This document shows, piece by piece, positions 1 through 48,889 of a DNA stretch of 64,000 nucleotides (positions are counted from its first letter, which is position 1; the number at the start of each line of letters is the position of its first letter). The DNA lies in assembly GCF_002914585.1 (NCBI RefSeq), contig NZ_PDDM01000018.1, positions 1 through 64,000 of the forward strand, read 5' to 3'. Made by a program: the position numbers and the translations under genes. Source of the stretch: Pseudanabaena sp. BC1403 (GTDB taxonomy: Bacteria > Cyanobacteriota > Cyanobacteriia > Pseudanabaenales > Pseudanabaenaceae). The notes under the pieces were generated by a model. The model was not told the origin of the DNA, did no database searches, and worked only from the letters and a program-made list of their open reading frames with translations.

Positions 1-18
1 AAGTTTTGAAGCATCGCT

Positions 19-627
19 GTGCTTATCTCAATGATATGCTTGATTCTTGTGAGTATAATTACTCAGTGCCAAACTGAGATGCTCCCAGCTGAATCTCACT
101 ATCTACGATCACTTGAAATCAGGGAAAGGCAGCTAGGGGAAAACAATCTCTATGTTGCCAACAGTCTCAATAATCTAGCAGAACTTTACCGAGTACAAGG
201 AAAGTATGACGAAGCCGAGACTCGCTATCTAAGATCGCTCGAAATCTCCGAACAGGAACTAGGAGCAGATCATATCTATGTTGCTCCTGTTCTCAACAAT
301 CTCGGATCACTTTATTGTTTGCAAAGGAAGTACGGTAAAGCTGAATCCCTCTTGCTGCGATCACTCAAAATTAGGGAATTCCAACTAGGATTAGAACATC
401 CTAATGTCGCTGACAGCTTATTCAACTTAGCTCAACTCTATCATACACAACGTTGTCCTGAAGCTCTACAATTCATCCAACGCGCCATCCAAATTTACAA
501 ACAAAAACTTGATATAGAACATCCGACAATGCAAAATGCACTTGCTTGGCTCCAGAAAATCCGTACTGCCAATAAACCTAGTTTTTCTATAGAATTCTTG
601 CTAAATATGAAACCTTCTATCCTATGA
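19..627 (+). CDS. TPR protein of kinesin-light-chain type, probably a truncated copy
   Basis: Three to four tetratricopeptide repeats of the kinesin-light-chain type are visible, with motifs such as AESHYLRSLEIRERQLG and YDEAETRYLRSLEISEQELG and spacings near 42 residues. Such repeats form a protein-binding scaffold; no catalytic domain is present. An in-frame stop at 7-9 blocks upstream extension. The first 20 residues (from a GTG) do not look like TPR, so ATG 79 is an alternative start. The family usually has many more repeats, so this looks like the 3' remnant of a longer gene. It overlaps the next gene by four bases (ATGA), which suggests translational coupling. Confidence 0.6.
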   Translation: MLISMICLILVSIITQCQTEMLPAESHYLRSLEIRERQLGENNLYVANSLNNLAELYRVQGKYDEAETRYLRSLEISEQELGADHIYVAPVLNNLGSLYCLQRKYGKAESLLLRSLKIREFQLGLEHPNVADSLFNLAQLYHTQRCPEALQFIQRAIQIYKQKLDIEHPTMQNALAWLQKIRTANKPSFSIEFLLNMKPSIL

Positions 628-938
628 GTCGCTTTTTCCTATGTCCCTACCTAAACGCTAATGTTGAGCTTACCGAAGAGCGCGAACAGCACATTAACCA
701 AAATCATCCGCAAACCCTTCCCAATTACCTTAGTGAACTAGCAGCAACCCTTGACAATCCCGATCAAGTCCGTCCAAGTAGCTTCGATCCTTCAGCCCTA
801 ATGTTTTCTAAATGGTTTGATACAATTCGGACAGGGCGATATTTAATTGCTGTTACCGTAACCGATGATCTAACTGAACGTCATTGGATTATCACAGCCT
901 ACACAGCCCGCAAAATCACTGGAGGTAATTCCCAATGA
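624..938 (+). CDS. small nuclease-fold-like protein, possible toxin
   Basis: A 104-residue soluble protein. It opens with a CPYLN motif, has ELTEEREQHI and HP in the first third, and ends with HWIITAYTARKITGG. The ERHWI-TAY ending recalls the Barnase/EndoU/RelE-like nuclease folds (PBECR-type) found in many small cyanobacterial proteins; this is from memory of family patterns and is not certain. It starts inside the stop codon of the TPR gene and overlaps the DUF2283 gene by four bases, giving the tight arrangement of a toxin-antitoxin pair. The function is inferred only. Confidence 0.6.
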   Translation: MSRFFLCPYLNANVELTEEREQHINQNHPQTLPNYLSELAATLDNPDQVRPSSFDPSALMFSKWFDTIRTGRYLIAVTVTDDLTERHWIITAYTARKITGGNSQ

Positions 939-1171
939 AATCCAACATGACAATCCGCTACGACAAAATCGGCGACATTCTCTACATCGATCAATGCATA
1001 CCCTATGCAGAGCAAGAATCCGAAGAAATTGGTGATGAAATTATTGCCAGACTCAATCCTGTAAATGGCAACATTGAAAACCTAGAAATCCTATTCTTTT
1101 CTAGACGACTACAAACCCAAAATATCTTTGAATTACCAATTTTTGCTCAATTGCAACTCATCTCTGCTTAG
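935..1171 (+). CDS. DUF2283 family protein, possible antitoxin partner
   Basis: A 78-residue protein with the DUF2283 signature: an early RYDKIGDILYID strand, then EEIGDEIIARLNPVNGNIENLEIL. DUF2283 proteins are small beta-rich proteins often paired with RelE/BrnT-like or DUF4258 toxins. The gene overlaps the upstream nuclease-like gene by four bases (ATGA), so the two are probably co-translated. ATG 947 (MTIRYDK) is an alternative start closer to the family's usual beginning. The antitoxin role is an inference from size and pairing. Confidence 0.65.
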   Translation: MKSNMTIRYDKIGDILYIDQCIPYAEQESEEIGDEIIARLNPVNGNIENLEILFFSRRLQTQNIFELPIFAQLQLISA

Positions 1172-1438
1172 CTAAAGCACTCAATCTTTAGTCTAGTAGG
1201 ACTTTACGAATCGCTAGGGAAGTACATTGAAGCCAAACCTCTCTATCTGCGATCCTTAGCAAGTCTCAAGCAAAAGCTAGGACAATATCATCCCAATACC
1301 CAAACTGTAATGTCTTCTCTAACGATATTGCGATCGCAAATTTCTACAGGTATGAGTTCTGAAACATTACAACAAATGATTGCCAAAAATCCTGATGATA
1401 TAATCAGATTGCTACAAGAAAACAATCCCGACAACTAA
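1172..1438 (+). pseudogene. TPR protein 3' fragment (no start)
   Basis: An open frame without a start codon encodes GLYESLGKYIEAKPLYLRSL, then KQKLGQYHPNTQTVMSSL, a typical kinesin-light-chain TPR unit, followed by a C-terminal tail ending LLQENNPDN. It follows directly after the DUF2283 stop. Because the TPR gene at 19-627 has its own different C-terminal tail, this is probably the tail of a second, paralogous TPR gene whose front was lost when the nuclease-like pair arrived or by recombination between TPR genes. It has no ribosome binding site of its own. Confidence 0.6.
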
Positions 1439-1481
1439 TAAAAAGAAAAAAGCACAAACACTCACAATCAAAAAAATAGCT

Positions 1482-1763
1482 ATGAACACAGCCACTAAAA
1501 CAATCAAAGTTTACGATGAAATTGTTGACTTCATTGCATCTGGCACAACGCCCCAGAGAGTAATCGACTTCCATCTTTCTGAAGCCGCACAAGAACGTTT
1601 AGAAGATTTAGTTCACAGTGCTAAAAACAATGAACTTACAAAAGAAGATAAAAGAGAATTAGAGAAATATTTAGTATTAGAACATATCCTCAGACTCGCT
1701 AAAGCTAAAGCCTACAAGTATATCGACACTGGAATTAAAGAAAATGCCTCGATCTTACATTAG
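1482..1763 (+). CDS. small hypothetical protein paired with HNH nuclease
   Basis: A 93-residue mostly helical protein (KVYDEIVDFIASGTTPQRVI, then FHLSEAAQERLEDLVH, then a charged KEDKRELEKYLVLEHILRL helix). It has no catalytic motif. It overlaps the downstream HNH gene by 20 bases. From memory this two-gene arrangement is common in cyanobacteria, and the small helical member may be a regulator or antitoxin-like partner of the nuclease. I do not recognise a named domain. Confidence 0.7.
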   Translation: MNTATKTIKVYDEIVDFIASGTTPQRVIDFHLSEAAQERLEDLVHSAKNNELTKEDKRELEKYLVLEHILRLAKAKAYKYIDTGIKENASILH

Positions 1764-2181
1764 GACTGAGTTGCGGCGCTTAGTTGCACAACGTGCAGAT
1801 TATTCATGTGAATATTGCCTGATTGCAGAAGAAAATACGCCATCTTGCCAAGTTGACCACATCATTAGTGTGAAACATGGCGGTGACTCGACAGCCGAAA
1901 ATCTTTGCTATGCTTGCCTATTTTGTAACTTACAAAAAGGAACGGATCTAGGCTCAATTAATTGGCAAAATGGAGAACTTGTTAGATTCTTTAATCCTCG
2001 CAGAGATTTATGGAGAGAACATTTTCAACTAGATGGAGCGATAATTCGTTCAACTACAGACATCGGCGAAGTCACAGCAAGAATTCTTGATTTTAATGAT
2101 GAAGATCGTACTTTAGAGCGACAAGTACTCATCGAAAATAACAGATATCCATCACGAGCAGCTAAAAATAAAATTGGCTAA
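1744..2181 (+). CDS. HNH endonuclease
   Basis: A 145-residue HNH-family nuclease. After an RTELRRLVAQRADYSCEYC start it shows the zinc-binding CEYC, the catalytic QVDHIISVKHGG block, and the NLCYACLFCNLQKG block, giving the C-x2-C, H and C-x2-C arrangement of McrA/phage-type HNH domains. It probably cleaves DNA with a metal ion. The C-terminal third (RRDLWREHFQLDGAII) is typical of this cyanobacterial subfamily. It overlaps the upstream small gene. Its target is not evident; it may be a mobile or defence-linked nuclease. Confidence 0.85.
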   Translation: MPRSYIRTELRRLVAQRADYSCEYCLIAEENTPSCQVDHIISVKHGGDSTAENLCYACLFCNLQKGTDLGSINWQNGELVRFFNPRRDLWREHFQLDGAIIRSTTDIGEVTARILDFNDEDRTLERQVLIENNRYPSRAAKNKIG

Positions 2182-2525
2182 ATCGCCAACAATTCTCCAA
2201 AGCTAAAATACAATTTGCATGTCGCCTGATATCTTGGGTAGCGCGATCGCGAACAATTATCGGAAAAGCCATACCTGCTATTGCTCTGTTCCAAGTACCG
2301 ACAATCGGAGATCTTGCCAATAAGCTGAAGTTACCAGTTCAGCATTTAGCAAATCCAGAAAATAATCTGCCACAGTATTATAAGTCCCAGACTGAATCTG
2401 TCCTTTAACATAGGATTAGGCTAAAAATATATGTATCAAGTCACAGTAGATTATGCCAAAGCAAACCTTGATGAACTATGCGATCGCGTTTGCTGCCATC
2501 AATAATCTTGGCGATTACTAACGTC
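2182..2525 (+). pseudogene. decayed spacer with an antitoxin-like remnant
   Basis: No intact gene is seen here. At 2431-2505 an ATG opens a 24-codon frame beginning MYQVTVDYAKANLDELCDRV and then stops; this matches the N-terminus of Phd/YefM-type antitoxins as I remember them and is cut short. On the minus strand around 2280-2410, short frames interrupted by stops (for example SGTYNTVADYFLDLL) are loosely like a ParD-type helix. The stretch looks like a graveyard of small accessory genes. Confidence 0.3.
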
Positions 2526-2560
2526 AAAAAAGCACCCTATCTCAAAAGCAGATAAGATGC
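2526..2560 (-). terminator. Rho-independent terminator of the tiny-peptide operon
   Basis: Read on the minus strand, a 10-bp stem (GCATCTTATC with GATAGGGTGC, two G-T pairs) encloses a 9-base loop and is followed directly by six T. It lies 23 bases after the stop codon of the 32-residue peptide gene, which supports that small operon being a real transcription unit. Confidence 0.6.
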
Positions 2561-2582
2561 TGGGACATTTTCTGGAGAAACT

Positions 2583-2681
2583 TTAGAAGCTATAGGCAGC
2601 ATTCGCTAGGCTTAAAACAGCGATCGCGCTCACAAAAAACTTAAAGGAAAAAGCTTGGAGATCAAAGATAGTCATAGTCAT
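2583..2681 (-). CDS. tiny hydrophobic protein B (32 residues)
   Basis: ATG at 2681, TAA at 2583-2585. The peptide has a short polar start (MTMTIFDLQAF) and one hydrophobic segment centred on KFFVSAIAVLSLANA, long enough for one membrane span. It shares the pattern KF-x4-IAVL-x-LANA with the gene immediately upstream at 2689-2781, so the two are paralogues. It begins seven bases after the upstream stop, without an obvious ribosome binding site, so translation is probably coupled. A terminator follows. I do not recognise the family; the shared motif at protein level is the main evidence that it is coding. Confidence 0.5.
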   Translation of the reverse strand: MTMTIFDLQAFSFKFFVSAIAVLSLANAAYSF

Positions 2682-2688
2682 GAGGAGG

Positions 2689-2781
2689 CTAGAGTGTAGA
2701 GAGAGCATTTGCCAAAACTAAAACAGCAATCGAACCAAAGTAGAACTTAATAACAAATCTACCAAAATGAAATACTGACAT
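2689..2781 (-). CDS. tiny hydrophobic protein A (30 residues)
   Basis: ATG at 2781, TAG at 2689-2691. The strand upstream reads GAGGAG seven bases before the ATG, a strong ribosome binding site. The peptide starts MSVFHFGRFVIKF and continues with a hydrophobic stretch FGSIAVLVLANAL, so it should be a single-span inner-membrane or thylakoid protein of the size of small photosynthetic or NDH accessory subunits, though it matches none I know. It shares IAVL-x-LANA and the preceding KF with the downstream 32-residue peptide. Function unknown. Confidence 0.55.
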   Translation of the reverse strand: MSVFHFGRFVIKFYFGSIAVLVLANALSTL

Positions 2782-2909
2782 TGCCTTGCTCCTCACTTCC
2801 ATATAACCGTACTTAGTATCAGGTTTTCCTCCAAGATATGACGTGATATGAGCCTTTTAGGTTTCGTGACTGTTTGCATTAAAATTTGCGATCGTGATCA
2901 CTAGTCATA

Positions 2910-2944
2910 AAAAAATGAGAGTTGCGACGCAACTCTCATTTTTT
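2910..2944 (-). terminator. terminator hairpin after the molybdopterin oxidoreductase
   Basis: A perfect palindrome with 17-base arms around one A (core GAGTTGCG). On the minus strand it ends in a run of T and starts six bases after the stop of the gene at 2950-3543. Confidence 0.75.
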
Positions 2945-2949
2945 ATAAA

Positions 2950-3543
2950 TTAAAGCGAACTATATCTTTCTTCAGCAAATGGTTCTCCACGATGGTGGTA
3001 GCCATTCCGTTCCCAGAAACCGAGTTGCATTTTGTCGAGGAACTCAAGCCCATTTAGCCATTTAGCGCTTTTCCAAGCATATAGATGGGGAACTACTAGT
3101 CGCATGGGACCACCATTATCAATCGGCAAAGGCTCATCAAAAAGCGTATGGGCGAAGAAATTCTCTTCTCTCGCAAAATCTTCCATGGCAATATTTGTCG
3201 TATATCCACCATAGCAATGTTCCATTAAATGTACAGCTTGAGGATCGACTTCAATATATTTTAAGAAATCCGTAACCTTGACACCCTTCCATTTCACATC
3301 GAGCTTTGACCATGTGGTTACACAATGAAAGTCAATTGTAAATTCTGTTTGCGGCATTGACATGAAGTCATCCCATGAGAATGTTTTCTCTGTCGCTAAT
3401 CCCCATACGCGAAATTGCCAATCTTGACGCTTGATTTGGGGAGTATCTCCATAGGTCATGATGGGGAAGCCATTGGTTAGCCTTTGTCCTTTAGGAATAC
3501 GATCTTGATTTGGCGATCGGGATTGAAATAAACTTCCAAACAT
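2950..3543 (-). CDS. sulfite oxidase-like molybdopterin-binding oxidoreductase
   Basis: A 197-residue protein matching the oxidoreductase molybdopterin-binding domain alone, as in small YuiH/YedY-like proteins. The likely molybdenum-ligand cysteine sits in DFHCVTTWSKLDVKWKGV (about residue 74). NGGPMRLVVPHLYAWKSAKW near the C-terminus is the conserved cofactor-site block. There is no signal peptide or dimerisation domain, so it is probably cytosolic and much shorter than true sulfite oxidases. The substrate is unknown. It is monocistronic, with a strong hairpin terminator. Confidence 0.85.
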   Translation of the reverse strand: MFGSLFQSRSPNQDRIPKGQRLTNGFPIMTYGDTPQIKRQDWQFRVWGLATEKTFSWDDFMSMPQTEFTIDFHCVTTWSKLDVKWKGVKVTDFLKYIEVDPQAVHLMEHCYGGYTTNIAMEDFAREENFFAHTLFDEPLPIDNGGPMRLVVPHLYAWKSAKWLNGLEFLDKMQLGFWERNGYHHRGEPFAEERYSSL

Positions 3544-3720
3544 AGAAAATTCTCACTCAAAATCAACTGTAAATATTATCGCTGTTTTCAGAAAATAAGG
3601 TGATTTCCAGTCTAAAATTTATCCTGCCATAACCCTGCCCTTGGAAAGCAGAGTGAATCAGATTTCTAGTTTTTTTCTTCCCAATCTGGAAATTAAAGGA
3701 GGTACATCTGAAAACAAATA

Positions 3721-3826
3721 ATACCAAAACACAAAAAGGCGTAGCCATTTTGTGTTTTTAAAACCTTTACAGGGTTTGGTTTATACCAATTCACGAAAGT
3801 GTAGCAACACTTTTGTGAATTGGTAT
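3721..3826. repeat. approx. 105-bp intergenic repeat, copy 1
   Basis: A composite of inverted repeats. The first hairpin has arms AAAACACAAAA and TTTTGTGTTTTT, a second small one is AAACCTTTACAGGGTTT, and a third (3781-3828) has 22-base arms around AGCA. The same element occurs in opposite orientation at 4594-4696, so the two copies flank the DUF721 gene. The only long open frame here (3563-3748, minus) is repeat-derived. Confidence 0.75.
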
Positions 3827-3966
3827 AAACAGGTGATGACACTTCTTGCTGGTAATTCTAATTATAAAAATTTATTAGTTCGAGTTACTGCGCTTTGCGA
3901 TGTGACTTAAATGGAGACAGCCATAAAAATGCTAATCTTAAGCAAAGTTATGTTTGGTTTACGACA

Positions 3967-4572
3967 ATGTCCTTAACAGGATTACCAAATATTTTGAACG
4001 GCATTCAGTCGCGTACTAGTTGGCAGCAACGCTGTCAATATTTACTGATTGTCGAAAAATGGGCGGAGATTGTCGGTGAGTCGGTGGCAAAACAAACTTG
4101 CCCAATTGGGGTGTATCAAAAAGCTCTACAGGTCGCTGTATCGAATTCAGTTTGGTCGCAGGCTCTGACCTTTGAGCGCGTCAGGATTTTGGCGAAGGTG
4201 AATGCGCTGTTTGGCGGTGCTGGGACTTTAGCGATCGCCGATATTCATTTCTCGACTGCAAAATGGGCTACCCAACAACAAACCTTAAAAGAACAAAAGG
4301 TTGTCGCTGAAGATCATCCGAGTTATTTACCTCCTGCGATCGCGAATGAATTAGTAACTAATCGTAAACTGAAGCCAAACCTTAAAATTAAATTAGAAAC
4401 TCCTAAAGCCCCTGAAACTGCCAATGAAGCATTCCAACGTTGGCAAGATGTAATGAAGTTAAGAACTCATCAAATGCCCAAATGTCCTCGATGCGATCGC
4501 CCTGCCCTCACTGGTGAAATATCCCGTTGGAGTATGTGCCGAGTTTGTGCGATCGAATATTTATTCAATTAA
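3967..4572 (+). CDS. DUF721 (DciA-like) protein with C-terminal zinc ribbon
   Basis: A 201-residue protein from the ATG at 3967 (MSLTGLPNILNGIQ). Residues about 20-95 are a DUF721 domain (WAEIVGESVAKQTCPIGV, ALQVAVSNSVWSQALTFER), the fold of DciA, which helps load the replicative helicase in bacteria lacking DnaC. A variable linker leads to a C-terminal zinc ribbon, CPRCDRP and CRVCA, typical of the cyanobacterial version. A further upstream TTG in the same frame gives an unconserved extension, which I reject. The gene is flanked by inverted copies of a 105-bp repeat. The DciA role is inferred from the domain. Confidence 0.8.
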   Translation: MSLTGLPNILNGIQSRTSWQQRCQYLLIVEKWAEIVGESVAKQTCPIGVYQKALQVAVSNSVWSQALTFERVRILAKVNALFGGAGTLAIADIHFSTAKWATQQQTLKEQKVVAEDHPSYLPPAIANELVTNRKLKPNLKIKLETPKAPETANEAFQRWQDVMKLRTHQMPKCPRCDRPALTGEISRWSMCRVCAIEYLFN

Positions 4573-4593
4573 AACATTTATCACTGCTACATC

Positions 4594-4696
4594 ATACTAA
4601 TTCACAAAAGTGTGACAACACGTCTGTGAATTAAAACCCAAACCCTGTAAGGGTTTTAAAAACACAAAATGGCTGTGCCACTTTGTGTTTTGGTAT
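4594..4696. repeat. approx. 105-bp intergenic repeat, copy 2 (inverted)
   Basis: The reverse complement of this stretch matches copy 1 at 3721-3826 in order and spacing: an ACCAAAACACAAA hairpin, then AACCCTTACAGGGTTT, then the AATTCACAAAAGTGT hairpin. It lies 21 bases after the DUF721 stop codon and may act as its terminator. Confidence 0.75.
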
Positions 4697-4853
4697 CACG
4701 GGAGCGGTGATAAATATTTAGCGTAAAGAAAGTGGTGCTTAACCCCAATTTCTTTATGGATGTGTGATTTGTAACGCAACACAAACAAACAATCAGGTAA
4801 CATTGCATAGAGTCGAGCTTTGCCTGACTCTATGCAATTAATAACTCTTCACG

Positions 4854-6245
4854 ATGCAACAACTAACACCTAATCCTAGCTTTAGCTTAACCATCCGCGT
4901 GCAACTCCTCAACCGCGCAGGAATGCTATCTTCAGTCATTGGCGTTCTAGCTGAAGCGGGAGGGAATCTCGGACAGATTGACCTCATCCAACAGACTCGC
5001 AAAATTTCAGTGCGCGATATTACGGTAAATGCTTATAGCGCCGAGCATATGGACAAATTGATTGCCGTCGTGAAGGCAGTCCCCGAAATTCGTGTTCTTG
5101 ATGTTTACGATCGCACTTTCCAAATTCATAAAGGTGGCAAAATTCATCTAGAAGCCAAAGTTGCTGTCAAAGGACAAGATGACCTCGCGATGGTTTATAC
5201 CCCTGGTGTAGGGCGCGTATGCATGGCGATCGCGGAAGACAAGCGCAAAGTTTATGACTACACGATCAAATGCAACACGATCGCGGTAGTTACCGATGGT
5301 ACGGCTGTATTGGGACTAGGCGATATTGGTCCTGAAGCTGCTATGCCTGTCATGGAAGGTAAAGCAATGCTCTTTAAACAATTTGCGGGACTAGATGCAT
5401 TCCCAATTTGTTTGAATACTAAAGATGTCGATGAAATCGTGGAAACCGTAAAACGCATTTCTCCTGCATTCGGTGGTATAAACCTTGAGGATATTAGCGC
5501 CCCACGTTGCTTTGAAATTGAAAGACGACTCAAAGCCGAATTAGATATTCCTGTTTATCATGATGACCAACATGGCACAGCGATCGTGGTAGTTGCTGCC
5601 ACACTCAACGCTCTCAAGGTTGTCAACAAACCTATCGACACAGTGCGAATTGTGATGAATGGAGCTGGAGCCTCAGGTATCGCTGTAGCTCGTCTCCTGC
5701 GTGAAGCAGGTGTGAAGCGAATCGAGATGTGTGACTCTAGAGGTTGTATCAGCAAGGATCGCCCTGATCTCACTGCTGAAAAACTAGAATTTGCTAGCGA
5801 TCGCTCTGGTTCTCTCGCAGAGGTGATCAAAGGTGCTGATATGTTTGTCGGTTTAAGTGTAAAGGGCGCACTTACGCCTGAGATGGTCAGAAGTATGGCT
5901 CCTGCACCGATCGTCTTTGCTATGGCAAATCCTAATCCCGAAATTCAGCCTGAACTAGTGGAAAACGATGTTGCAGTAATCGCCACAGGTCGAAGTGACT
6001 ATGCAAACCAAATTAATAATGTATTAGCGTTTCCAGGGATTTTTCGTGGTGCACTTGATGCAAGGGTTACCCAAATCACTACCCAAATGAATTTAGGGGC
6101 AGCTCAAGCGATCGCTTCTTTAGTCAGCAGTAGCGATCTTGCTCCTGATTTTATTATTCCTTCTGTATTTGATCCCCGCGTTTCCCATGCAGTTGCTGCC
6201 GCAGTCCATGCAGTGGCACGTCAGCAAGGACTAGCTAACGCATAA
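4854..6245 (+). CDS. NAD(P)-dependent malic enzyme with N-terminal ACT domain
   Basis: A 463-residue enzyme converting malate to pyruvate and CO2. Residues about 10-85 are an ACT regulatory domain (IRVQLLNRAGMLSSVIGVLA), so an amino acid or other small ligand may control it. The malic N-terminal domain has AMVYTPGVGRV with the catalytic Tyr, PVMEGKAMLFKQFAG with the catalytic Lys, and PVYHDDQHGTA for metal binding. The NAD domain has MNGAGASGIAVARLL. The C-terminus is DPRVSHAVAAAVHAVA. It stands alone with a terminator overlapping its stop codon. Confidence 0.93.
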   Translation: MQQLTPNPSFSLTIRVQLLNRAGMLSSVIGVLAEAGGNLGQIDLIQQTRKISVRDITVNAYSAEHMDKLIAVVKAVPEIRVLDVYDRTFQIHKGGKIHLEAKVAVKGQDDLAMVYTPGVGRVCMAIAEDKRKVYDYTIKCNTIAVVTDGTAVLGLGDIGPEAAMPVMEGKAMLFKQFAGLDAFPICLNTKDVDEIVETVKRISPAFGGINLEDISAPRCFEIERRLKAELDIPVYHDDQHGTAIVVVAATLNALKVVNKPIDTVRIVMNGAGASGIAVARLLREAGVKRIEMCDSRGCISKDRPDLTAEKLEFASDRSGSLAEVIKGADMFVGLSVKGALTPEMVRSMAPAPIVFAMANPNPEIQPELVENDVAVIATGRSDYANQINNVLAFPGIFRGALDARVTQITTQMNLGAAQAIASLVSSSDLAPDFIIPSVFDPRVSHAVAAAVHAVARQQGLANA

Positions 6246-6280
6246 ATAAAAGGGCGTGCAAAGCACGCCCTTTTATTTAT
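6242..6280 (+). terminator. terminator palindrome overlapping the malic enzyme stop codon
   Basis: Perfect 18-base arms around an AAA loop, with core GGGCGTGC-AAA-GCACGCCC and an AT-rich outer stem. The left arm contains the TAA stop codon, and the right arm ends in T-rich sequence. Confidence 0.8.
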
Positions 6281-6295
6281 TAGGACTTACGCATT

Positions 6296-6345
6296 AACCG
6301 AGATTCGTAGGGGCAATTCATGAATTGCCCCTACGAATCTCGGTT
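6296..6345. repeat. perfect 50-bp palindrome
   Basis: Uninterrupted self-complementary sequence, centred between 6320 and 6321 (GGGCAATTCA meets TGAATTGCCC). The right end overlaps the TTA stop of the minus-strand gene at 6344-7012. It lies between convergent genes and could terminate transcription of that gene. Confidence 0.8.
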
Positions 6346-7012
6346 ATGTTTGCATGGAGATAAATTCATCAACTAAATTTAGGAGTCTTTCGATCGCATC
6401 ATTGAGATTTATCGACTTCACAGGAAATCCATGAGCGACGCGATTTCTAATCTCGTTTAAAGCGATCACAGTTTCAAACTGATGATTAGAAATACCTAAT
6501 TGATCGTGAAGATGATGGATCATCAAAATCGTTGGTAAGCGATCAATAGGAATTAATGTATGTCTTGCATGTCTTCGCATCAAGATCTCGGCAAATATCC
6601 AAAGCGATAGAAAGGCAGCCTCATGTTCTCCAATCGAGATTAATTTGGCGATCCGTTCTTTGCGATGCAAGATTTGCGATCGCGTAAGTTTATGATCCTC
6701 AATATCTTCTTCAGCGATCGGCGTTGCATCTTCTCCAGTTATCAGCAAAAATCGCCAGCCACTATGCTCAGCAACATTTTTGGCAATCTCTCGATAATGG
6801 GCGATCGGTAAATTTGTAGCGACATCTTGAACCTCAACGATAAAGCCTTGATTCTCCGACATCTTCACCAATAAATCTGGGCTATACCCATTTAAATCAA
6901 ATGGTAGCTGCTGGGTATGAGGTTGACGAATAACTTCATATCCCTGGAAACCATAGCATTCGATAACTTTTGTCTTGACCAAACTATTAATACTTGTACT
7001 ACCTGAACGCAT
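6344..7012 (-). CDS. restriction-endonuclease-fold (AHJR-like) protein with C-terminal HEPN-like motif
   Basis: A 222-residue protein. Residues about 40-62 show PDLLVKMSENQGFIVEVQ, the PD...(D/E)xQ form of a restriction-endonuclease-like active site resembling the REase_AHJR-like family. The C-terminal half is helical and ends with ALNEIRNRVAHGF (about residues 185-197), which fits the R-x4-H motif of HEPN ribonucleases or of the related DUF4145-type helical domains. It probably acts on nucleic acid. It has no operon partner, so a conventional restriction system is not evident. Family naming is from memory. Confidence 0.65.
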   Translation of the reverse strand: MRSGSTSINSLVKTKVIECYGFQGYEVIRQPHTQQLPFDLNGYSPDLLVKMSENQGFIVEVQDVATNLPIAHYREIAKNVAEHSGWRFLLITGEDATPIAEEDIEDHKLTRSQILHRKERIAKLISIGEHEAAFLSLWIFAEILMRRHARHTLIPIDRLPTILMIHHLHDQLGISNHQFETVIALNEIRNRVAHGFPVKSINLNDAIERLLNLVDEFISMQT

Positions 7013-7081
7013 TCTTAATGCCGACTCATTGCTTAAGGCAAAAAACTATACCAGTTGTCAAAATGACGTTGACATTTTAGG

Positions 7082-7118
7082 GATAGGATAGGCGGCGCGA
7101 AGCGCCGCCCATCCTATC
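7082..7118. repeat. GC-core palindrome downstream of leuC
   Basis: 17-base arms with one mismatch around GAA, core GGCGGCGC-GAA-GCGCCGCC, flanked by GATAGGAT and its complement. It lies 17 bases after the leuC stop (minus strand) and probably serves as its terminator. The same core with other outer arms recurs at 31418, 44419 and other places. Confidence 0.75.
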
Positions 7119-7134
7119 TAGTTGAGAATTGGTA

Positions 7135-8454
7135 TTACATGAAATCACGCGGATCGGTGATATGTCCTGTCAAAGCAGAAGCCGCTGCCGTATAGGGTGA
7201 AGCAAGATAAATTTGCGCTTGCTTATTACCCATCCGACCAGGGAAATTACGGTTTGTCGTCGAGACACAAACCTCTGCCTCATTGACACGTCCAAAAGTA
7301 TCTTGTGGCCCACCCAAGCAGCCAGCACAGGATGGTGAAGCTGGTTCAATGCAACCTGCTTGCAAGAAGATTTCTGAAAGTGTCAAGCCATCAATCTTCA
7401 AGCTGAATAGATCATTGTAAACCTTCTGTGTTGCTGGTACAAGGTAAGTAGGAACCTTGACCTGTTGACCTTTGATCAATTGAGCGGCGTGATAGAAGTC
7501 TTCAGTTTTACCACCAGTACAGGAGCCGATATAAACGCGATCGATCTTCACATCTTGTACTTCGCGAACAAGAGCGCGATTGTCAGGAGAGTGAGGCTTT
7601 GCCACTACGGGTTCTAATTTGGAGACATCGTAATGCTTGACGTAATAGTACTCAGCATCAGCATCGGCGTAGAGCGACTCAAAGGGCTTAGCGGTGCGCG
7701 ATCGCACATAGTCGAAAGTCGTCTGATCTGGTGCAATTACGGCATTTTTACCGCCAGCCTCGATCGCCATATTGCAGATCGTCATCCGCTCTTCCATCGT
7801 CATTTTGGCGATCGCTTCGCCTTCAATCTGCAAAGCGCGATAATTTGCGCCACTAACGCCGATATCGCCAATTACTTGCAAAATCAAATCCTTAGCCAAC
7901 AAATAAGGCGGCATTTCTCCATCAAATACAAACTTCATCGAGGCAGGAACCTTTAGCAATAATTTGCCCGTTCCCAAAACAAAGGCAGCATCGGTATTAC
8001 CGATGCCTGTGGCAAATTGTCCAAATGCTCCCGCATTACAAGTATGGGAATCAGTGCCAAATAGTACTTCACCTGGTCGCGTGTGACCTTCTTGCGCAAG
8101 GGCAATATGGCAAACACCTTTATAGTCAGGATTCGCTTTAAAGTCCGAAAGATCGGTAATGTCGTAGAAATACTTAATGTCTTGCTCTTTGGCAAATTCT
8201 CTCAAAATATCAATATTGCGGTTAGCTCTTGTATCTTTGGTAAAAATATAGTGATCGGGGATCAATACTAATTTTTCTTTGTCCCACACCTTGGCATCTT
8301 GACCAAATTCACGCTTAAATACGCCGATCGTGCCAGGGCCGCAGACATCATGGGTCATTAGCAGGTCAGCATTCACCCAAATATTTTCGCCTGGGCTAAC
8401 GTGATTTTTGCCCGACGCTTTTGCCAAAATCTTTTCGGTGAGTGTCATTCCCAT
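7135..8454 (-). CDS. leuC: 3-isopropylmalate dehydratase large subunit
   Basis: A 439-residue aconitase-superfamily protein for the isomerisation of 2- to 3-isopropylmalate in leucine synthesis. The [4Fe-4S] ligands are the Cys in YIGSCTGGK and the two in SPSCAGCLGG. VLFGTDSHTCNAGAFGQFATGIG and MTICNMAIEAGGKNA are family blocks. Its length matches the archaeal/cyanobacterial LeuC-type (homoaconitase-related) branch. An AAGGACA ribosome binding site precedes the ATG at 8454. The small subunit LeuD is not in this window. A homoaconitase-like role cannot be fully excluded but is unlikely in cyanobacteria. Confidence 0.93.
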   Translation of the reverse strand: MGMTLTEKILAKASGKNHVSPGENIWVNADLLMTHDVCGPGTIGVFKREFGQDAKVWDKEKLVLIPDHYIFTKDTRANRNIDILREFAKEQDIKYFYDITDLSDFKANPDYKGVCHIALAQEGHTRPGEVLFGTDSHTCNAGAFGQFATGIGNTDAAFVLGTGKLLLKVPASMKFVFDGEMPPYLLAKDLILQVIGDIGVSGANYRALQIEGEAIAKMTMEERMTICNMAIEAGGKNAVIAPDQTTFDYVRSRTAKPFESLYADADAEYYYVKHYDVSKLEPVVAKPHSPDNRALVREVQDVKIDRVYIGSCTGGKTEDFYHAAQLIKGQQVKVPTYLVPATQKVYNDLFSLKIDGLTLSEIFLQAGCIEPASPSCAGCLGGPQDTFGRVNEAEVCVSTTNRNFPGRMGNKQAQIYLASPYTAAASALTGHITDPRDFM

Positions 8455-48492: not shown

Positions 48493-48799
48493 AGTTGAAA
48501 AAGATCTATTTCACATTATCCCATTAATTAACTAGGAGATACTCCCTTCCCAGTGAAGGATTAGACGTTGTGGCGCTTCGCGCCGCAACGGGGGGAAGGG
48601 AGTAGTATCTGCTTGTTAATTAATGAAATCTGTTGAGAGGAAGAAGAGATTATTTTAACTGACTACATTCTAATTCCCATTTGCCAACGTATTCAATATG
48701 CGGTTAACATTTCGATTATTGCGCTGATGTCTCTGTAGCAATATAAGGCTTGATTTGTCCTAACTAACTCAATCATTGCTATAGCAATGATTGGTGATC

Positions 48800-48889
48800 G
48801 CGATCACAGCAGGAGATAATGAATATATCGCGAAACCTGTTAAGCTAAAGCAACTTGCGAACACTATCCATCAATTTTTAGCGACTTAA
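48800..48889 (+). pseudogene. 3' fragment of a response-regulator receiver domain
   Basis: The frame encodes AITAGDNEYIAKPVKLKQLA then NTIHQFLAT and stops. This is the end of a receiver domain (conserved Lys in AKPVKL) and parallels the last residues of the kinase at 52400-56056 (AAGANDYLSKPVKLRQLTKL). It shows that a further hybrid kinase or regulator gene once preceded the present cluster and was lost except for this tail. Confidence 0.65.

Follow-up and report, generated by a model that had tools for sequence, protein, structure and literature searches.

The minus strand of a 64,000-nucleotide stretch of DNA from Pseudanabaena sp. BC1403 (the window) carries two adjacent genes, here called A and B, that encode related hydrophobic peptides of 30 residues, belong to an apparently undescribed family and lie behind a promoter design that recurs at other loci. 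The reading we favor, to which we assign a probability of roughly 45%, is that these are single-helix membrane micropeptides controlled by a CRP-family regulator that would dock as regulatory or accessory subunits. Working from sequence and structure prediction, we infer that the peptides insert into the membrane and dock on a partner, and that a CRP protein binds the promoter and activates rather than represses it.

Gene A occupies positions 2689–2781 (minus strand) and encodes the 30-residue peptide MSVFHFGRFVIKFYFGSIAVLVLANALSTL followed by a stop codon; it is defined by profile matches and by dN/dS. Gene B, at 2583–2675 on the same strand, encodes the 30-residue peptide MTIFDLQAFSFKFFVSAIAVLSLANAAYSF and a stop, and is delimited by its conserved start. 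A preliminary description of this DNA had placed two minus-strand frames at 2689–2781 and 2583–2681, separated by 7 nt, and had assigned 32 residues to B. Both exist as frames, but the longer version of B was not borne out: the start in relatives corresponds to position 2675, which gives 30 residues in 15 of the 15 B copies read (14 with ATG and one with GTG); among these 15, the window copy alone has the ATG at 2681. Counted from the conserved start, the gap between A and B is 13 nt. An in-frame ATG at 2708, earlier still than 2681, overlaps A; only some relatives have it in the B frame. The Shine–Dalgarno sequence GAGGAG (2789–2794, minus strand) precedes the ATG of A by 7 nt, and the KF-x4-IAVL-x-LANA motif is present in both peptides, both as originally reported. 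No clear Shine–Dalgarno sequence precedes B, which is therefore probably translated by coupling.

Copies of these frames are widespread in the genus. Of 26 genomes from the genus, 19 gave full-length matches to the A profile (E 1.2e-14 or less), for a total of 27 copies, not counting a decayed remnant in G002; the seven genomes that have no full-length A include two that are <90% complete. The A peptide is exactly 30 residues long in 26 of the 27 copies and 31 residues long in the remaining one (G016). Individual genomes carry as many as three A copies, and in G013:C33 two lie near each other. There are 16 intact B copies, spread over 13 genomes and each adjoining the A that it follows; B is broken after two further A copies, by an insertion in UWO311 and by a frameshift in G023. 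Profile searching combined with locus inspection did not find B after the nine other A copies, and the B profile search gave no strong match away from an A. In UWO311 (L108, ~6140–6240), the insertion that disrupts the syntenic B is short and contains a long inverted repeat, and A is intact. The G013 locus (L122 6001–6491; G013:C33:65212-65702) is a tandem A–B–A arrangement in which the second A is diverged and has its own CRP-like site. In P. biceps (L117 2191–2300) and ‘Roaring Creek’ (L118 2208–2320), A lies directly before a same-strand gene and no B was found; that gene, tested in P. biceps only, has a weak match to DUF58.

The substitution pattern in these copies indicates that A and B are under purifying selection. 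Nei–Gojobori counting on mean proportions gives dN/dS values for A of 0.084 (10 syntenic copies) and 0.077 (5 second-locus copies), and for B of 0.22 (8 copies) and 0.20 (5 copies) in orthologous sets. Over all copies the values are 0.18 (26 A) and 0.22 (15 B), with G007, a near-duplicate of G006, excluded both here and from the promoter comparisons described below. The preliminary description had pointed to frame conservation and codon substitution in relatives as informative; A frames are kept in the 19 genomes noted above, and dN/dS among orthologues is ~0.08 for A and ~0.2 for B. It is nearly certain that A and B are real genes. Ends resembling those of a transcript are conserved, as would also be expected if the region were a conserved non-coding RNA, or carried chance open reading frames, but we consider such an explanation extremely improbable in view of the exact 30-residue length in 26 of 27 A copies and in all 15 B copies read and of the excess of synonymous over non-synonymous change in syntenic A (0.317 versus 0.034 per site, ~10-fold).

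A and B look like duplicates, as previously suggested: their profiles, which derive from shallow alignments, can be aligned in register across 29 columns with an hhalign probability of 96% and an E value of 2e-9. The family extends beyond this locus, and three of its features go beyond the earlier account: a promoter pattern, a second A–B pair in the same genome and an additional subfamily, C. The second pair (G000:C9:255-455) lies among FAD-enzyme and Rieske/PaO genes. Subfamily C, exemplified by MTEINIGGFIFQSYATAIAFLILIVIL, was reached via weak profile matches and comprises 11 copies in 9 genomes, none of them the window's own genome. The C peptides are 27 residues long in eight of the nine copies read and 30 in the other; the copies in G006 and G007 lie outside these nine, and a partial C match in G004:C26 was not counted.

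Profile searches outside the genus covered 386 phylum, 38 order and 388 class genomes. Loose thresholds returned matches in 49 of the 386 phylum genomes at E 0.1 or less, three of these in the genus, and in at least 161 of the 388 class genomes at E 0.3 or less. Weak matches outside the genus were judged by coverage, stops and frame length, and two, G412 and G569, were inspected directly. G412, from another genus of the same family, contains a full-length 30-residue member with Lys12 (E 0.0025, obtained with a profile built without G412), preceded by a CRP-like site with one mismatch and no GATACT-like box. The G569 candidate failed on inspection. A second 30-residue hydrophobic open reading frame lies 61 nt after the A homologue in G412 (L169 455–544, minus strand) and has Glu at position 12, making it a possible charge-paired partner of the homologue (Glu12 versus Lys12). 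A contig-database scan yielded 16 loci, 14 from Pseudanabaena, one from Phormidium tenue and one from an uncultured cyanobacterium; a scan of viral sequences found no relative, and a plasmid search found none carrying A. The sensitivity of short profiles is limited, so absence outside the genus is only limited evidence, and these searches may have missed members in other lineages.

The earlier statement that no described family matches these peptides agrees with our searches of Pfam, NCBIfam, PHROGs and the PDB. Pfam and NCBIfam gave no match for A or B, and PHROGs gave none for A, B or C and two weak matches (E 0.09) for the G412 member. When the 18 rows of an alignment termed A6 were compared with Pfam, three families were matched by one row each, with a best E value of 0.046. 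PDB sequences contain no match for A; those for B are three designed dTor toroids (E 0.0006, 0.0012 and 1) and were judged compositional. Rfam matches within window positions 1–8000 were all far below gathering scores, and among the top-listed titles and abstracts of literature searches none described this family. A leaderless two-peptide bacteriocin was considered as a possible identity of A and B and provisionally set aside. Genes this short are easily missed in annotation, and the A, B and C family is present in many sequenced cyanobacterial genomes.

AlphaFold predicts a helix spanning residues 3–29 in both A and B, with mean pLDDT values of 92.4 and 94.2, consistent with the original proposal of a two-gene unit of single-span peptides. 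The best 19-residue Kyte–Doolittle mean is 1.7–2.4 in six peptides, which is hydrophobic enough for a membrane span, and each peptide may insert into the membrane as this single helix. Lys12 is invariant in 15 aligned A rows and 13 aligned B rows. In alignment A6, Tyr14 and Leu21 are invariant in 18 of 18 rows and Lys12 is present in 17, and in subfamily C position 12 is Gln instead of Lys in five of nine rows. Small residues at positions 8, 15/16, 19 and 26 fall, as read by eye, on one face of the helix. The polar residue at position 12 (Lys, or sometimes Gln in C) and this small-residue stripe could together dock the helix on a larger membrane protein, of which the peptides would most likely be regulatory or accessory subunits, with A as the core component and B, encoded on the same message, as an optional duplicate. 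No neighbor common across the loci examined points to a partner; since the paralogous loci examined have differing neighbors, the partner is probably encoded elsewhere.

One candidate for such a partner is the neighboring molybdopterin oxidoreductase (2950–3543, PF00174), encoded on the same strand, for which A and B might serve as a membrane anchor or other partner. A lies directly downstream of this gene in 12 of the 17 genomes having the enzyme, and all 17 also have A, although this co-occurrence may merely reflect clades. We regard the idea as very unlikely: A is located elsewhere in the other five genomes (G001, G004, G008, G013 and G020), the enzyme is missing from G012 and G017, which do have A, and the G000:C9 pair and the C copies also lie elsewhere. 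The enzyme gene and A are moreover separated by a promoter-like region and by a perfect 17-bp inverted repeat. This repeat, at 2910–2944, has one base between its arms and lies between the oxidoreductase gene and the A promoter; it is possibly the terminator of the oxidoreductase gene. Elsewhere in the window, a 145-residue open reading frame (1744–2181) with CxxC and DH motifs overlaps a short one (1482–1763); we take the longer frame to resemble an HNH endonuclease.

Several small membrane peptides offer comparisons. Like TisB, the A and B peptides are ~29–30 residues long, have Lys12 and are predicted to form a single helix, and a TisB-like activity, in which they would depolarise the membrane and slow growth while being restrained by antisense RNA or by folding of their own message, would also accord with the presence of up to three A copies per genome, including the closely spaced pair in G013:C33. 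YohP, with 27 residues, is described as lowering membrane potential without killing (PMC12719787). According to the account in PMC11449926, however, TisB strictly requires Lys12 and also needs Gln19, which Asp can replace, and at least one lysine at position 26 or 29. Residue 19 is instead Ala, Gly or Ser in A rows and Ala (with one Thr) in B rows, and no aligned A or B row has Lys or Arg at positions 26–30; the G412 member ends in Arg. With a dN/dS value of 0.08 and synteny across 12 genomes, A looks like a stable chromosomal gene under strong purifying selection. No antisense RNA was found: the window copy has no antisense promoter-like site, and the weak matches scattered over 15 of 26 copies are not consistent, the commonest, at +6, occurring in 8 copies. 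On these sequence features a toxin of the TisB type is disfavoured, and we consider it quite improbable. AcrZ, whose interaction partner is the membrane portion of the AcrB pump (PMC7267776), and YohP are likewise single-span micropeptides; A and B differ from them in being paired, multiplied behind one promoter design and without a family match. MsoT1 of Microcystis, from the reported type I system msoT1/msoA1, is similarly a small hydrophobic cyanobacterial membrane peptide, but it has two predicted helices and is reported to be paired with an RNA antitoxin encoded opposite to it (PMC12390103).

The conserved region upstream of A, on the minus strand, contains a −10-like box, GATACT (2815–2820), and an element near the −35 region, ATCACGTC (2840–2847), both identified from the promoter alignment. 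Farther upstream is a CRP-like palindrome, AGTGATCACGATCGCA (2887–2902), centered 74 bp from the −10-like box and differing at two positions from TGTGAN6TCACA, the consensus for cyanobacterial CRP (PMC2633013). A second, degenerate CRP-like position (2865–2880) was read from the alignment; it is weak in the window copy, and several paralogues have better sites there. TCAC is invariant in the 22 aligned promoters, a set that omits four of the 26 (P. biceps, Roaring Creek, G016 and G017), and the G017 promoter lacks it. Between −140 and −85, palindromes with at most two mismatches are found in 23 of the 26 A promoters and 6 of the 9 C promoters, versus 9 of 239 control open reading frames; when only one mismatch is allowed, the numbers fall to 14 A promoters, 5 C promoters and none of the 239 controls. 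The interval was chosen after the alignment had been viewed, the copies are related rather than independent samples, and the controls are mechanically called frames of 100 residues or more from the same loci with unchecked starts. At two mismatches, three of the 26 A and three of the nine C promoters have no CRP-like site.

The spacing between the center of the site and the −10-like box is 51 or 74–75 bp in 21 of the 23 A promoters and in all six C promoters; of the remaining two A promoters, one has a spacing of 82 and the other has no −10-like box. These spacings differ by two helical turns, and four A promoters and one C promoter have sites at both. When placed on the −10 hexamer, the sites fall at about −62 to −64 and −85 to −87, which we take to be close to the class I CRP positions of E. 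coli. A CRP-type promoter on A and B is likely on the evidence of these patterns; a CRP-family regulator, bound on the upstream side of the common promoter design, would determine expression, which would end at a dedicated terminator. In the cyanobacterial CRP-activated promoters reported in PMC2633013, the −10 box is mostly ~22 bp downstream of the site, so the promoters here, with 51 or 74 bp, differ in class from the reported ones, and this reduces our confidence in the main reading. The recurring 51 or 74–75-bp spacing predicts where the regulator should lie, and the family provides a testable set of candidate CRP-dependent micropeptides in cyanobacteria.

At the 3′ end of the unit, a hairpin scan identified a Rho-independent terminator stem followed by a T run (2531–2561, minus strand), in agreement with the earlier proposal that the pair has its own terminator. 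The stem, then given as 10 bp followed by six T, is scored by the scan as 12 pairs (2561–2531; folding z −2.96) with the first of the six T counted in the stem. In an alignment of 13 sequences the consensus stem has 11 pairs, and for three of these at least one sequence has substitutions in both partners. Between B and the terminator, the 3′ untranslated region contains UCUCC (2574–2578, minus strand), which is complementary to the GGAG core of a ribosome site. Of 21 A and C transcripts chosen for comparison, 17 have UCUCC no more than 45 nt beyond the final stop codon, versus 0.89 expected from mononucleotide shuffling, a contrast overstated by the relatedness of the sequences chosen. The motif is in register by eye in 16 of the 21, the lw0831_1 copy being in the terminator loop, and is absent from ULC068_a, ULC068_b, G025_1 and G006_1. 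It could act as a processing signal or base-pair, either with other messages or with the ribosome site of the transcript that carries it. Pairing with the transcript's own GGAG appears in 3 of 21 folds (G022_1, G023_1 and G012_a). The A ribosome site is not consistently hidden in the folds of the 21 transcripts, so we do not propose a fold-back switch.

The order of these elements suggests a further possibility, that one CRP-controlled transcript provides both the peptide or peptides and a base-pairing RNA acting through UCUCC, in the manner of VcdRP and AzuCR. AzuCR resembles the A/B unit in size and in its link to CRP. As described in PMC8672173, AzuCR yields a small protein and a base-pairing RNA, and VcdRP combines a CRP-controlled promoter, a 29-residue open reading frame, a four-cytosine pairing region and a rho-independent terminator. 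The A/B unit, with its putative CRP control, small open reading frame, C-rich stretch and terminator, resembles this order, a likeness of design and not of homology, and the recurrence of UCUCC across A and C paralogues and the covarying terminator pairs are in line with a dual role. Against this, the kinship of the sequences inflates the UCUCC count, one copy is part of the terminator loop, and a motif of 5 nt could equally serve for pairing with its own GGAG or as a processing site. VcdRP is also described as repressed by CRP, whereas the upstream sites here suggest activation, and VcdP and AzuC are described as binders of citrate synthase and GlpD, whereas A and B are hydrophobic helices, often two per message. 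Base-pairing at A/B is a proposal from sequence, and the CRP site appears in the comparison as a sequence pattern. We consider a dual role of this kind possible but doubtful. A broader version, in which a CRP-driven design copied to several loci in each genome would constitute a regulon of tiny dual-function genes, each short message combining one or two membrane helices with a segment complementary to the Shine–Dalgarno sequence, seems to us unlikely; if true, cAMP status would be relayed both by a membrane peptide and by a base-pairing RNA.

In the window's own genome, seven proteins exceed the family cut-off for the CRP-type HTH, and one of them has an internal stop. Exact copies of TGTGAN6TCACA occur five times in this genome, all of them away from A and B, compared with three for a control pattern. 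A search of the genome with the ATCAC-GATACTAA promoter pattern recovered this locus and two others, L141 (G000:C17:32247-32284) and L143 (G000:C42:11088-11119), compared with two hits for a control pattern. Repeats of the GCGATCGC type raise the background in the window, where a shorter core is found 33 times versus 15.9 expected. The sole CRP-like core with zero mismatches in the window is an exact GTGATCGCGATCAC palindrome at positions 48794–48807, away from A and B.
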